From positions 4,588,001 to 4,652,000 of the forward strand of contig NZ_LR134290.1 in the NCBI RefSeq assembly GCF_900636545.1: a stretch of DNA of 64,000 nucleotides, written 5' to 3'. The position numbers and the translations under genes are program-made. This document shows positions 6,328-55,801 of this stretch, in pieces; positions within the stretch are counted from its first letter, which is position 1; every line of letters begins with the position of its first letter. Source of the DNA: Pseudomonas mendocina (GTDB lineage Bacteria; Pseudomonadota; Gammaproteobacteria; Pseudomonadales; Pseudomonadaceae). The notes under the pieces are model-generated. The model was not told where the DNA came from, made no database searches, and saw nothing but the letters and a program-made list of their open reading frames with translations.

Positions 6328-6448
6328 TTATCCACAGATCCATCCCCGGCATTTGTGCACAAGCCTTTGATCCTGTTGAATTTTTAGCCAGACAATGAAA
6401 AGCCCCGGAACACTAGGCAGTGCGCCGGGGCTCCCCAGTTTATCCACA
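6328..6448. other. Two perfect DnaA boxes and a shared oriC-like module between rarD and gcvR
   Basis: Two perfect DnaA 9-mers TTATCCACA occur at 6328–6336 and 6440–6448, with the palindrome TTGTGCACAA at 6353–6362. Bases 6349–6387 form a module (GCATTTGTGCACAAGCC, then TTTGATCCTGTT, then ATTTTTAG) that recurs inverted at 55657–55706 with about 11 extra bases in the middle. The motif is DnaA-like by consensus; function as a DnaA titration or regulatory site is inference. The gcvR terminator lies within this interval. Confidence 0.6.
6397..6432 (-). terminator. Rho-independent terminator of gcvR
   Basis: Read on the minus strand, downstream of gcvR, AGCCCCGG (6425–6432) pairs with CCGGGGCT (6401–6408), with a smaller inner CACT/AGTG stem, and is followed by TTTTCATT. 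Confidence 0.75.
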
Positions 6449-6473
6449 GGCTGATCCACGCTCGCCGTGGATA

Positions 6474-6992
6474 TCAATCCTCGGCGCGCAGATTCAGCTC
6501 CACCATCAGGTCGTCGGCCAGGGTCTCCAGGCGCGCCTGCAATTGCTCCAGGGGCAGGGTCTCCGGCACGGCCAGCAGCGCCTCGGCGGTGAACAACAGC
6601 TCGCCGCTCATCGGTGCTGGTGCCACCTCGGTGAGCAGGCTCTCCAGGTTGACGCCCTGCTCGGCCAACACGCGGGTGATGTCACGCACGATACCGGGCC
6701 GGTCGTTGCCGACCAGCTCCAGGCGAATGGCGGCGAAACGCCCGCCTGGTTCGCTACCACTCGCCGCCAACTGCACGCGAATACCCTGAGTACCGAGCGC
6801 TTCGAGCTCCTTGATCAAACCGCCGTGGGCCTCGGCCGGTACATCCACCCGCACGATCCCGGCAAACTGCCCGGCCATGCGCGCCATGCGACTCTCCAGC
6901 CAGTTGCCGCCATGTTTCGCCACGCAGCCGGCGAGGCGCTCTACCAGGCCCGGTTGGTCCTCGGCAATCACCGTCAGTACCAGATGATCCAT
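6474..6992 (-). CDS. gcvR: Glycine cleavage system transcriptional repressor GcvR-like ACT protein
   Basis: A protein of 172 residues with two ACT domains: about residues 1–75, starting MDHLVLTVIAEDQPGLVERL, and about 85–165, with LVGNDRPGIVRDITRVLAEQ. In E. coli, GcvR binds glycine through these domains and modulates the activator GcvA. There is no DNA-binding domain. It ends at a terminator in a gap carrying DnaA boxes. The acetyltransferase gene lies 33 bases upstream on the same strand and is possibly co-transcribed. Family identity is good; the regulatory target in this organism is inferred. Confidence 0.85.
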   Translation of the reverse strand: MDHLVLTVIAEDQPGLVERLAGCVAKHGGNWLESRMARMAGQFAGIVRVDVPAEAHGGLIKELEALGTQGIRVQLAASGSEPGGRFAAIRLELVGNDRPGIVRDITRVLAEQGVNLESLLTEVAPAPMSGELLFTAEALLAVPETLPLEQLQARLETLADDLMVELNLRAED

Positions 6993-16699: not shown

Positions 16700-17206
16700 C
16701 TAGCGACACACTTGACGATACAGCGCGTCGTCCTTGTCGATGCGCTTGAGCTGGGCAAGCTGAGGCTGCTTCTTCTCGTCCAGCGGCAACAACTCGCCAG
16801 TTGCGCAATTGAGCAGATGGGCGCGGTGCGAAACGTGGTCGATGTGCTGCTTCTCGAAGCGATAGAGCATGAACTCGGCCACTTGCGCGTCTTCCACCTG
16901 ATCGCGCACGACGCTCTTGCTGTCGAGCACGGTGAAGGCGGTAACCATCGGCACGAAGTAGCTCCACGGGCGCCAGAACACGTGACCCGCTTCGGTCGCG
17001 ACCACGACCGACTCCTTGGGCTGACGCGCCTGCTGATGCTCGAACCAGGAGTACTCGTAGAACACCTGATAGCCCAGCATCCCCAGGCCACCGAACAGTG
17101 GCACGATCCACTTCGGCAGCTTGTTGCGCGTCAGTTTGCGTAGCAGCAGAGCGATACCGGCAGCGCCGAGCCCCGCCACCACGATGGCAAGCAAAGTCCA
17201 CAACAT
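16700..17206 (-). CDS. Membrane-anchored protein of unknown function
   Basis: A protein of 168 residues. Two hydrophobic segments lie at about residues 3–22 (WTLLAIVVAGLGAAGIALLL) and 33–49, separated by a basic stretch RKLTRNKLPK. The rest (about 55–168) is soluble and mixed-charge, with no motif I recognise. It lies downstream of the symporter operon, past a strong terminator, so it is probably transcribed separately. Similar proteins seem common in Pseudomonas, but no function is known to me. Confidence 0.75.
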   Translation of the reverse strand: MLWTLLAIVVAGLGAAGIALLLRKLTRNKLPKWIVPLFGGLGMLGYQVFYEYSWFEHQQARQPKESVVVATEAGHVFWRPWSYFVPMVTAFTVLDSKSVVRDQVEDAQVAEFMLYRFEKQHIDHVSHRAHLLNCATGELLPLDEKKQPQLAQLKRIDKDDALYRQVCR

Positions 17207-17219
17207 ATGAGTGTTCCCG

Positions 17220-17250
17220 AAAAAAGACGGGCCTCCAGTGGAGGCCCGTC
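17220..17250 (-). terminator. Strong terminator of the symporter operon
   Basis: An 11-bp perfect stem GACGGGCCTCC/GGAGGCCCGTC with a 3-base loop (17226–17250), followed on the minus strand by six T residues (complement of 17220–17225). It lies 47 bases past the symporter stop. Confidence 0.92.
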
Positions 17251-17297
17251 TGTCAGACCCTGGTCCATCGAACGATGGCGTCAGGCCAGGATTATGC

Positions 17298-19067
17298 TTA
17301 GTGGTTCAGAGCGGCACCAGCACCTTTGGGGGTACGTACGCTTTCCACCAGGTCCTGGATTTCCTGCGGCGGCTCAGCGGTGACCATCGATACGCCGTAG
17401 GCCACGGCGAAGTTGATCAGGGCGCCGACGGTACCGAAGGAAGCCGGGGAGATACCCATGAACCACTGGTCCGGGGTATTGGGCAGCATGTTGGTCTCCG
17501 GAATGAAGAACCAGCCCAGGTAGGTGAAGATGTACAGCAGGGTGATCACCAAGCCGGCGACCATACCGCAGATCGCACCCTTGTCGTTCATGCGCTTGGA
17601 GAAGATCCCCATCATCAGCACCGGGAACAGGGTCGCAGCTGCAATACCGAAGGCCAGCGCCACCACCTGCGCGGCGAACCCTGGTGGATTCAAGCCCAGA
17701 TAGGTTGCCAGCAGAATCGCAGCCGCCATCGATAGCCGCGCCGCGATCATCTCGTTCTTCTCGCTGATCTTCGGATTGATCAAGGTCTTGATCAGGTCAT
17801 GACTGATCGCCGAAGAAATTGCCAGCAACAAACCAGCCGCCGTCGACAGTGCCGCCGCAATGGCGCCCGCCGCGATCAGACCGACTACCCAGGCAGGCAG
17901 ATTGGCGATCTCCGGGTTGGCCAGTACCAGGATGTCGTTGTTCACGGTCAGTTCGTTACCGTTCCAGCCACGCTCCTGAGCGGTCGCGGTGAAGGCCGGT
18001 GCAGCATCGTTGTACATCTGGATGCGGCCGTCGCCGTTCTTGTCTTCCCACTTGATCAGGCCGGTCTGTTCCCAGTTCTTGACCCACTCAGGACGCTCTT
18101 CGTAGGACAGGGCAGGGGCCGAAGCGCCTTCCGGATAGATGGTGGTCACCAGGTTCAGGCGCGCCATCGAGGCAACGGCCGGGGCGGTGAGGTACAGCAG
18201 GGCGATGAAGATCAGGGTCCAGCCAGCGGACCAACGAGCATCAGCCACCTTCGGCACGGTGAAGAAGCGAATGATCACGTGCGGCAGACCGGCAGTACCG
18301 ATCATCAGCGACATGGTGAACAGCACCATGTTGAGCTTGTTGTCGACATCCGCGGTGTAGGCGGCGAAGCCCAGGTCACGCACCACTTCATCGAGTTTCT
18401 GCAGCAGCGGCACGCCGGATTCGACGTGGTCACCGAACAGGCCCAGCGGCGGAATCGGGTTACCGGTCAGCTGCAGGGAGATGAAGATGGCCGGGATGGT
18501 GTAGGCCACGATCAGTACCACGTACTGAGCGACCTGGGTGTAGGTGATGCCCTTCATGCCACCGAATACGGCGTAGGCGAAGACCACGGCCGCAGCGATC
18601 CAGATACCGGTGGAGTTGCTCACTTCGAGGAAGCGCGAGAAGGCAACACCAGCGCCAGCCATCTGACCGATCACGTAGGTCACGGAGATGATCACCAGGC
18701 AGATCACTGCAGTCAGGCGCGCGCCACGACTGTAGAAGCGATCACCGATGAAGTCCGGCACGGTGAACTTGCCGAACTTGCGCAGGTAGGGCGCCAGCAG
18801 CATCGCCAGCAGCACGTAGCCACCGGTCCAGCCCATGAGGAAGGTGGAGTTGGCATAGCCGCCGGCGGCAATCAGGCCTGCCATGGAAATGAAGGATGCA
18901 GCGGACATCCAGTCAGCGGCGGTCGCCATGCCGTTGGTGACCGGATGCACACCACCGCCAGCGACGTAGAACTCCTTGGTGGAGCCGGCACGCGCCCAGA
19001 TGGCGATGCCGATGTAGAGCGCGAAGGACGCGCCTACGAACAACATGTTGATGACGAACTGGCTCAT
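17298..19067 (-). CDS. Sodium:solute symporter large subunit (VC_2705 subfamily, acetate/monocarboxylate type)
   Basis: A protein of 589 residues in the SSS family with about 13 membrane spans. It is typical of the VC_2705 subfamily: MATAADWMSAASFISMAGLI near residue 50, DFIGDRFYSRGARLTAVICL, and a long insert (about residues 305–375) carrying an EF-hand-like KWEDKNGDGRIQMYNDA segment. It most likely takes up a short-chain carboxylate such as acetate with sodium, but the substrate is inferred. It is preceded by the DUF4212 small subunit with a 3-base gap, forming a two-subunit transporter. Confidence 0.9.
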   Translation of the reverse strand: MSQFVINMLFVGASFALYIGIAIWARAGSTKEFYVAGGGVHPVTNGMATAADWMSAASFISMAGLIAAGGYANSTFLMGWTGGYVLLAMLLAPYLRKFGKFTVPDFIGDRFYSRGARLTAVICLVIISVTYVIGQMAGAGVAFSRFLEVSNSTGIWIAAAVVFAYAVFGGMKGITYTQVAQYVVLIVAYTIPAIFISLQLTGNPIPPLGLFGDHVESGVPLLQKLDEVVRDLGFAAYTADVDNKLNMVLFTMSLMIGTAGLPHVIIRFFTVPKVADARWSAGWTLIFIALLYLTAPAVASMARLNLVTTIYPEGASAPALSYEERPEWVKNWEQTGLIKWEDKNGDGRIQMYNDAAPAFTATAQERGWNGNELTVNNDILVLANPEIANLPAWVVGLIAAGAIAAALSTAAGLLLAISSAISHDLIKTLINPKISEKNEMIAARLSMAAAILLATYLGLNPPGFAAQVVALAFGIAAATLFPVLMMGIFSKRMNDKGAICGMVAGLVITLLYIFTYLGWFFIPETNMLPNTPDQWFMGISPASFGTVGALINFAVAYGVSMVTAEPPQEIQDLVESVRTPKGAGAALNH

Positions 19068-55108: not shown

Positions 55109-55232
55109 CTCGACTCTCCTGCAGCGCCTGTAGGCGGCGGTCTTGGACTAACGGGCCGGCAAGGCCCTGTGCAGCGATGGTAGGGCCGGCCCTGCCCGCC
55201 CAAATGCCTGCCAACGCCGCGAGAGCATTTGT

Positions 55233-55254
55233 TTGCGACATGGCCCTGTCGCAA
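55233..55254 (-). promoter_or_regulatory. Candidate operator of the glyA1–sox operon
   Basis: TTGCGACA-n6-TGTCGCAA is a perfect 8-bp dyad, 125 bases upstream of the glyA ATG. A further TGTCG half-site lies at 55276–55280. The hexamer TGTCGC also occurs several times in the gbcB–gbcA promoter region. AraC-type regulators GbdR and SouR are known to control these genes in Pseudomonas; which one binds here is not shown by sequence. Confidence 0.5.
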
Positions 55255-55308
55255 TCAGGCGCGTCGATATGAGCCTGTCGTTTTGCGCACAAATCACGGG
55301 GATCAAGC

Positions 55309-55738
55309 TGTGGATAAACCGTGTATACAGCGCGCCACCGCAGAGCCGGCGAGGCCGCCAGAAGAAAGATCATTTCCTGATCGATATCAAATAGTTAGCA
55401 AAGCAAGCCATGCACAGAAGCAGTGGACGAGCCTGTGGAAAAGCTGTCGACCGATGGCTGCAGCGCTCACCCGCTCTATGCTTGGCGCACGAGGTCGGTA
55501 TCTGCACACTGGAGCAGGCCGCACGGCTTATCCACCCGCGACACCTGAGGAGACGGGAAACGGCTGGGGATATACACAGAAGATGTGGATGAACGTGTGC
55601 ATAGCCTGTTCGACACAGGCGCAACGACAGCGCTGCCGCGGCCTTCCGAGAGATGACTAAAAATCGAACAGGATCAATAAGTTGGCTTTGGCTTGTGCAC
55701 AAATGCTGTGGGCGGGGTTGTGCACTGGCTGTGGAAAG
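55309..55738. other. Cluster of DnaA-box-like 9-mers in the glyA1 upstream region
   Basis: Within the 693-bp gap between glyA and the next gene: TGTGGATAA (55309–55317, perfect DnaA box), TGTGGAAAA (55434–55442, fits the relaxed TTWTNCACA), TTATCCACC (55528–55536), ATATACACA (55570–55578), TGTGGATGA (55584–55592), TTGTGCACAA (55693–55702) and TGTGGAAAG (55730–55738), each with at most one mismatch to the relaxed consensus. GATC sites and an AT-richer stretch lie at about 55366–55410. Bases 55657–55706 are an inverted copy of the rarD–gcvR module. No ORF is supported here. Confidence 0.6.
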
Positions 55739-55746
55739 ACGCCGCC

Positions 55747-55773
55747 AGGCCAGAGCCCATGGGGCTCTGGCCT
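55747..55773 (-). terminator. 12-bp hairpin after the small secreted-protein gene
   Basis: AGGCCAGAGCCC (55747–55758) pairs with GGGCTCTGGCCT (55762–55773), loop ATG. It lies 29 bases past the stop of the minus-strand gene; only a weak T-rich stretch follows, so terminator function is likely but not certain. Confidence 0.5.
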
Positions 55774-55801
55774 GCATGCGCACTAATCACTCAATAGGCG
55801 A

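Follow-up and report, generated by a model that had tools for sequence, protein, structure and literature searches.

The window analysed here is a stretch of 64,000 nucleotides (positions 4588001-4652000) from a Pseudomonas mendocina genome that consists of one contig of 5.19 Mb. Within it, a gap of 693 bp (55109-55801) separates glyA1 from a small open reading frame (ORF), both on the minus strand, beyond which lie ltaE, gbcB and gbcA; these gene names are assigned from Pseudomonas synteny. The closest named matches of the LtaE protein of the window belong to P. mendocina, P. guguanensis, Pseudomonas sp. P818, P. yangonensis and P. toyotomiensis. Two long ORFs cross the gap and both are open in the window. 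They are stop-free in only 6 (plus-strand ORF) and 2 (minus-strand ORF) of 18 alignment rows, the window included, and a coding gene was rejected because the ORFs are interrupted in most aligned relatives, in agreement with an earlier sequence-only reading that had described the gap as lacking a supported gene. The same reading had pointed to an AT-richer stretch and to GATC sites. The gap exceeds the window only slightly in AT content (58.9% GC, compared with 63.0%) and holds no oriC-like AT-rich element, and GATC sites are not enriched in it (5.8 per kb versus 6.7 per kb in the window).

The gap is occupied by an array of DnaA boxes (Table 1). Boxes were counted as start positions with at most one mismatch to TTWTNCACA, which gives nine in 55309-55738 and ten in the gap; 2000 order-1 Markov sequences built from the gap average 0.59 and never exceed 4. 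The cluster of seven boxes, one of them perfect, that had been proposed is therefore real, its size was underestimated and its exact boxes are two. No denser box cluster exists in the window, the runner-up (at 6328) having four positions. Genome-wide, exact TTWTNCACA occurs 127 times and the reversed pattern 42 times. The surroundings of all 127 exact boxes (648 kb including the window) were surveyed together with 14 random 20-kb stretches, a design that could miss clusters elsewhere in the genome without any exact box. Around the exact boxes, clusters with at least five positions per 430 bp are the array (9), an oriC-like cluster (7) and three others (5), and none of the random stretches contains a cluster with four or more. 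A density comparison of this kind had been proposed as a check.

Table 1. Coordinates of DnaA boxes, modules and IHF-like sites in the window.
Feature	Position	Strand	Description
U1	55283..55317	+	box I 55283-55291 (+), box II 55297-55305 (-, degenerate CGGGGATCA), box III 55309-55317 (-, perfect TTATCCACA)
U2	55408..55442	+	box I 55408-55416 (+), box II 55422-55430 (-, degenerate AGTGGACGA), box III 55434-55442 (-, TTTTCCACA)
U3	55570..55604	+	box I 55570-55578 (+), box II 55584-55592 (-), box III 55596-55604 (-)
U4	55693..55727	+	box I 55693-55701 (+), box II 55707-55715 (-, degenerate), box III 55719-55727 (-, degenerate)
Extra reverse box near U4	55730-55738	-	+37 from U4 start
Single box TTATCCACC	55528..55536	+	one mismatch; between array halves
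Exact box	55309	-	TTATCCACA
Exact box	55434	-	TTTTCCACA
One-mismatch boxes in 55309-55738 (n=7)	55528, 55570, 55584, 55596, 55693/55694, 55730		55693/55694 a palindromic pair
Tenth box position of gap	55281		outside 55309-55738
IHF-like site 1, TATCAAATAGTTA	55385..55397	+	perfect match to WATCAANNNNTTR
IHF-like site 2 (weak), GATCAATAAGTTG	55672..55684	+	one mismatch to WATCAANNNNTTR; A-tract before it
Second window locus	6328..6474	-	two modules (starts 6328, 6440) between rarD and gcvR-like gene; scan 8/5/9, 7/7/9

Module Architecture and IHF-Like Sites

The boxes of the array form four modules, each with a forward box I, a reverse box II at +14 and a reverse box III at +26, often followed by another at +37. 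U3 is the most complete, with scan matches of 8/8/8 for boxes I/II/III, scores identical to those of the Escherichia coli DARS2 core. U1 and U2 both score 7/6/9, box III being strong in them and box II weak. U4, scored by hand at 8/5/6, falls under the scan threshold in the window and contains the outer pair CACA-N17-TGTG. The quality of boxes I and II is 8/8 in U3, 7/6 in U1 and U2 and 8/5 in U4, and a three-box core at 0/+14/+26 with an opposite box I is found in the window at U1, U2 and U3.

This geometry is rare, and in this genome it lies well above the average three-box geometry. Among 289 three-box geometries counted in sampled sequence of the same genome, (14,26) gave 21 matches and (14,37) gave 22, against a mean of 3.3 (sd 2.7), a figure that compares geometries and not densities because the sample was enriched for box neighbourhoods by design and includes the array. 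Among head-to-head pairs in the same sample, spacings of 26 bp (14 pairs) and 14 bp (6 pairs) are the most frequent, and no other exceeds 4. The outer pair CACA-N17-TGTG has 23 sites in the genome (22 for the control), four of them in the array and one at window position 6333. Modules scoring at least 20 are absent from 1 Mb of order-2 Markov sequence; two genomic matches at this level, at 434684 and 2218979, look like AT-rich chance and were set aside.

Sequences resembling IHF sites stand between U1 and U2 and between U3 and U4. The first base of each lies 76 bp past the start of the box III before it, and the module that follows begins 21-23 bp further on. Among the 18 aligned rows, site 1 matches perfectly in 13 and with one mismatch in 4, and L008 lacks it. 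In relatives site 2 is weak: 15 of the 18 rows have two mismatches, 2 have one and L008 has five. Since the window holds 3 perfect matches to WATCAANNNNTTR and 18 with at most one mismatch, the single perfect site of the gap is no more than suggestive. Genes for Hda and IHF-alpha were found in the genome above cut-offs, which makes a DnaA-ADP cycle plausible.

Conservation and Persistence Across Pseudomonads

Conservation was calculated from 15 of the 18 aligned gaps, after three near-duplicates had been dropped. The 12 module boxes average 0.94, compared with 0.69 for the other 230 columns of 55270-55740, and U1, U2 and U3 pass the scan in all 15 rows; a comparison with relatives had also been proposed earlier. 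U4 passes in 7 of 15 rows, the window not among them. Mean column conservation of boxes I/II/III is 0.93/0.96/0.99 in U1, 0.90/0.84/0.99 in U2 and 0.98/0.99/1.00 in U3; the single box at 55528 reaches 0.95, and the blocks around the IHF-like sites reach 0.85 and 0.90, the latter being 55660-55684. Among 121 shifts, the box template scores highest at shift 0; neighbouring shifts score close (0.93 at +1) because the conserved islands are wider than the boxes.

Modules of this kind are widespread in the genus. The strict pattern CACANNNNNNGKGGNNNNNNNTGTG has 282 matches in 59 Pseudomonas genomes (69 for the control) and exceeds the control in 59 of 59. Across 143 gammaproteobacterial genomes, each from another family, it has 240 matches against 64, with a strict match in 112 genomes and a control match in 50; by eye, many of the class-wide matches listed have the form CACA-N5-TGTGGATAA-CTY-TGTG. 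Recurrent loci were surveyed in 24 one-contig genomes, sorted by eye with singletons dropped and with five genome sizes rounded to 0.1 Mb, and each keeps a similar distance from dnaA. For locus a (rarD-gcvR), 16 of 18 cases lie on the left arm at 8.5-11.5% of the genome from dnaA; locus b is at 11.1-14.1% in 12 of 13. All 15 cases of locus c fall at 11.6-15.5%, on one arm or the other, and locus d is at 23.7-33.9% in 15 of 16. The exceptions are G029 in loci a, b and d, and G015 in locus a. The second locus of the window occupies the rarD-gcvR gap (both gene names from NCBIfam), where many other Pseudomonas genomes also have modules.

Several further loci deserve mention. At 1469230 of the source genome (L148:3230-3264), a canonical DARS1-like core (8/9/8) stands beside an FKBP-type gene; locus d is syntenic with it, and its DARS core is more canonical than the array, which perhaps makes it the better DARS candidate. 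The module at 1353661 of the same genome (L147:3661-3695) also scores 8/9/8, more canonical than the array. Two near-identical module pairs about 9.9 kb apart (L144:7250-7488 and 17144-17382) include one adjoining a chrA-like gene, and five modules are spread over 3.2 kb and two gaps at 837988-841180 of the source genome (L146:1988-5180), near genes for an RhtC-like exporter family protein.

The array persists in one chromosomal neighbourhood while its gap changes. A survey of 80 named LtaE loci, with a cluster defined as at least five boxes per 430 bp, placed one between glyA1 and ltaE at 11 loci, between ltaE and gbcB at 3 and past gbcA at 25. The sequence was too short at 34 loci (13 without gbcA and 21 with less than 1.2 kb past it), and at seven of the 80, where at least 1.2 kb past gbcA was covered, no cluster was seen. 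A forward test covered, in seven complete genomes, the 40-60 kb that extend from the rarD-gcvR module towards oriC, a stretch without a strict match in any of them. Exactly one cluster was present in all seven, 0.13-2.04 kb past gbcA in six and about 7.1 kb past it in one. In G019 it lies 7.1 kb past gbcA. A consensus of 13 fluorescens-group sequences has, by eye, four modules in one orientation, with box II weak in all. The arrays of different Pseudomonas groups are probably homologous, as judged from module number, orientation and neighbourhood and not from alignable spacers.

Comparison With Escherichia coli DARS and Related Loci

Box arrangements of the DARS type recharge DnaA in E. coli, where ADP-DnaA drops its nucleotide and becomes ATP-DnaA. 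Applied to MG1655, the module scan recovers DARS1 and, at DARS2, both the core and a second module; in DARS1 and the DARS2 core alike, box I is forward, with box II at +14 and box III at +26. The left MG1655 module is identified as the DARS2 core by deletion primers quoted in PMC4585315. The second module-like arrangement of DARS2 (L133:952-986) lies 316 bp from the core in the same orientation. The literature describes a box spacing shared by both DARS, with box I opposite in direction (PMC5742627), and a head-to-head box pair that is essential in E. coli DARS (PMC10380432). Thirteen ChIP-bound double boxes given in PMC11317965 served as a control. At the DARS position, only the cores of DARS1 and DARS2 have a box I that scores 8/9; the second DARS2 pair and nrdD reach 6, datA 5, and rne, nrdA, rpoH, dnaA, oriC, mioC, polA and purH 2-4. 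Weak module-like matches, AT-rich or poor, in E. coli nrdA, oriC/mioC, polA and rne lie away from the bound double boxes and were discarded. Geometry alone is not proof of a DARS, since PMC5835720 gives only 2 of 52 similarly arranged E. coli box pairs as recognised DARS.

The array resembles DARS2, which lies upstream of mutH, in the identical 8/8/8 core of U3; DARS2 also has a repeated module in the same orientation, and IHF sites belong to it according to PMC4245941 and PMC5742627. However, DARS2, whose IHF and Fis sites stand at a fixed distance from its core, has two modules instead of four, and the array lacks mutH synteny, differs in IHF spacing and has a degenerate box II in three modules. 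Within gammaproteobacteria related to E. coli the DARS2 core is conserved (PMC4245941). DARS-like sequences also occur outside enterics, in Vibrio cholerae (PMC6090056), where they adjoin uvrB and mutH as in E. coli, whereas the array, intergenic between glyA1 and the small ORF, is beside neither gene. The three-box geometry of DARS1, upstream of uvrB, is identical to that of the array modules, but DARS1 has one module, a perfect box II and a position 33% from oriC. A ColE1-type stretch, TTATCCACA-gaatc-AGGGGATAA, is present in E. coli plasmid records; it has the head-to-head spacing of the array and a GGGGAT-type box II as in U1, although its third box is poor. According to PMC5835720, a DARS was first discovered in the origin of ColE1, where it has three boxes. 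The stretch described here may be this ColE1 DARS.

A Candidate DARS-Type Locus and Its Alternatives

We regard it as very probable that the gap is a real, conserved, non-coding DnaA-control element. That this element is of the DARS type, the reading that we prefer, has a probability of about 0.5, as judged from sequence. A DnaA-control site is the part of the sequence-only reading that is well supported, unlike its second origin and one-carbon promoter; the match to DARS had not been considered. The four DARS-type modules suggest a conserved replication-timing switch and not a second start point. We infer binding of DnaA and IHF, release of ADP and an effect on initiation timing. In each module, DnaA molecules on boxes I and II would face each other head to head across 5 bp, those on boxes II and III would stand in tandem across 3 bp, and ADP-DnaA held in this way would give up its nucleotide and become ATP-DnaA, as in E. 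coli. A bend made by IHF beyond U1 and another beyond U3 would probably bring adjacent modules together (U1-IHF-U2 and U3-IHF-U4). Counting against a DARS are the degenerate box II of U1, U2 and U4, the fluorescens-group arrays with their weak box II throughout, the more canonical cores at 1353661 and 1469230, a distance from oriC nearer that of datA than those of DARS2 and DARS1, and the weakness of IHF-like site 2 in relatives.

A datA-like site is the leading alternative, less probable than the DARS type. The array would then titrate DnaA and, together with IHF, promote ATP hydrolysis on DnaA; since the array is duplicated early, it would act soon after initiation. Consistent with this, no other DnaA-box cluster around an exact box of the genome is as dense as the array, oriC included, and IHF-like sites lie between its modules as boxes flank an IHF site in datA, the datA site also being a perfect match to WATCAANNNNTTR. 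Its distance from oriC (10.6% of the genome) is close to that of datA (10.1%), compared with 20.6% for DARS2 and 32.9% for DARS1. However, datA has no DARS-type head-to-head module, its box I at the DARS position matching 5/9, whereas the array repeats the DARS geometry four times. The datA spacing (tandem boxes 7 and 2, IHF, box 3) is likewise not matched by the array, boxes and an IHF-like site being present: the IHF site of datA begins 65 bp beyond box 2, with box 3 another 97 bp on, the corresponding distances in the array being 76 and 21-23 bp. Geometry thus favours DARS and position favours datA.

It is improbable that the array serves glyA1 and the one-carbon genes, or the small ORF, as a promoter region under DnaA control. 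In the mendocina group it does lie upstream of glyA1, but other groups have the cluster between ltaE and gbcB or past gbcA, as much as about 7 kb off. Because a similar array occupies different gaps in other pseudomonads, regulation of glyA1 is an unlikely role, and the one-carbon promoter of the sequence-only reading is disfavoured. Genes adjoining the other module loci, moreover, share no function by NCBIfam. Still less probable is a protein other than DnaA that binds the inverted repeat CACA-N17-TGTG. In its favour, the outer half-sites of the repeat lie two helical turns apart and box II is degenerate in three of four modules; against it, one arm is often a perfect TTATCCACA, the full TGTGGATAA stands at box II in the canonical loci of this genome and in many of the class-wide matches listed, and exact boxes are in genome-wide excess over the reversed pattern.

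The array lies about 550 kb from dnaA and from an oriC-like box cluster just before dnaA, the two meeting at the contig ends; the sequence-only reading had likewise not taken it for the main oriC. The last 65 kb before oriC (5127504-5192837) contain 27 of the 127 exact DnaA boxes, mostly isolated TTATCCACA, which are possibly titration sites. A second replication origin, to which many DnaA boxes in a non-coding gap with an IHF-like site might point, was rejected on dnaA position, GC content (58.9% versus 48.6% at oriC, with a lowest 50-bp value of 34% versus 26%), skew and box arrangement, as the array has no AT-rich unwinding element, no dnaA neighbourhood and no sustained skew switch within the window.

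Implications for Replication Control in Pseudomonas

In the open-licence literature we found no DARS in Pseudomonas and no description of how DnaA is reset there between rounds of replication; the available parts of PMC10218098 and PMC5397419 mention DnaA-reactivating and Pseudomonas without linking them. Our tentative wider picture, more doubtful than the DARS-type reading itself, is that pseudomonads have distributed DARS-core loci at fixed distances from oriC, and that the glyA1/gbcA array is a four-module, IHF-organised hub that has repeatedly changed gaps within a few kb yet kept its address. It would be a DARS/datA hybrid selected for its replication time and not for a neighbouring gene. 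Because the array and the loci related to it are short, non-coding and predictably placed, they can be deleted or moved in a laboratory strain to measure how initiation responds. Judging by the excess of the three-box pattern across the class, the DARS core may extend within the Gammaproteobacteria beyond those relatives of E. coli in which it has been described.
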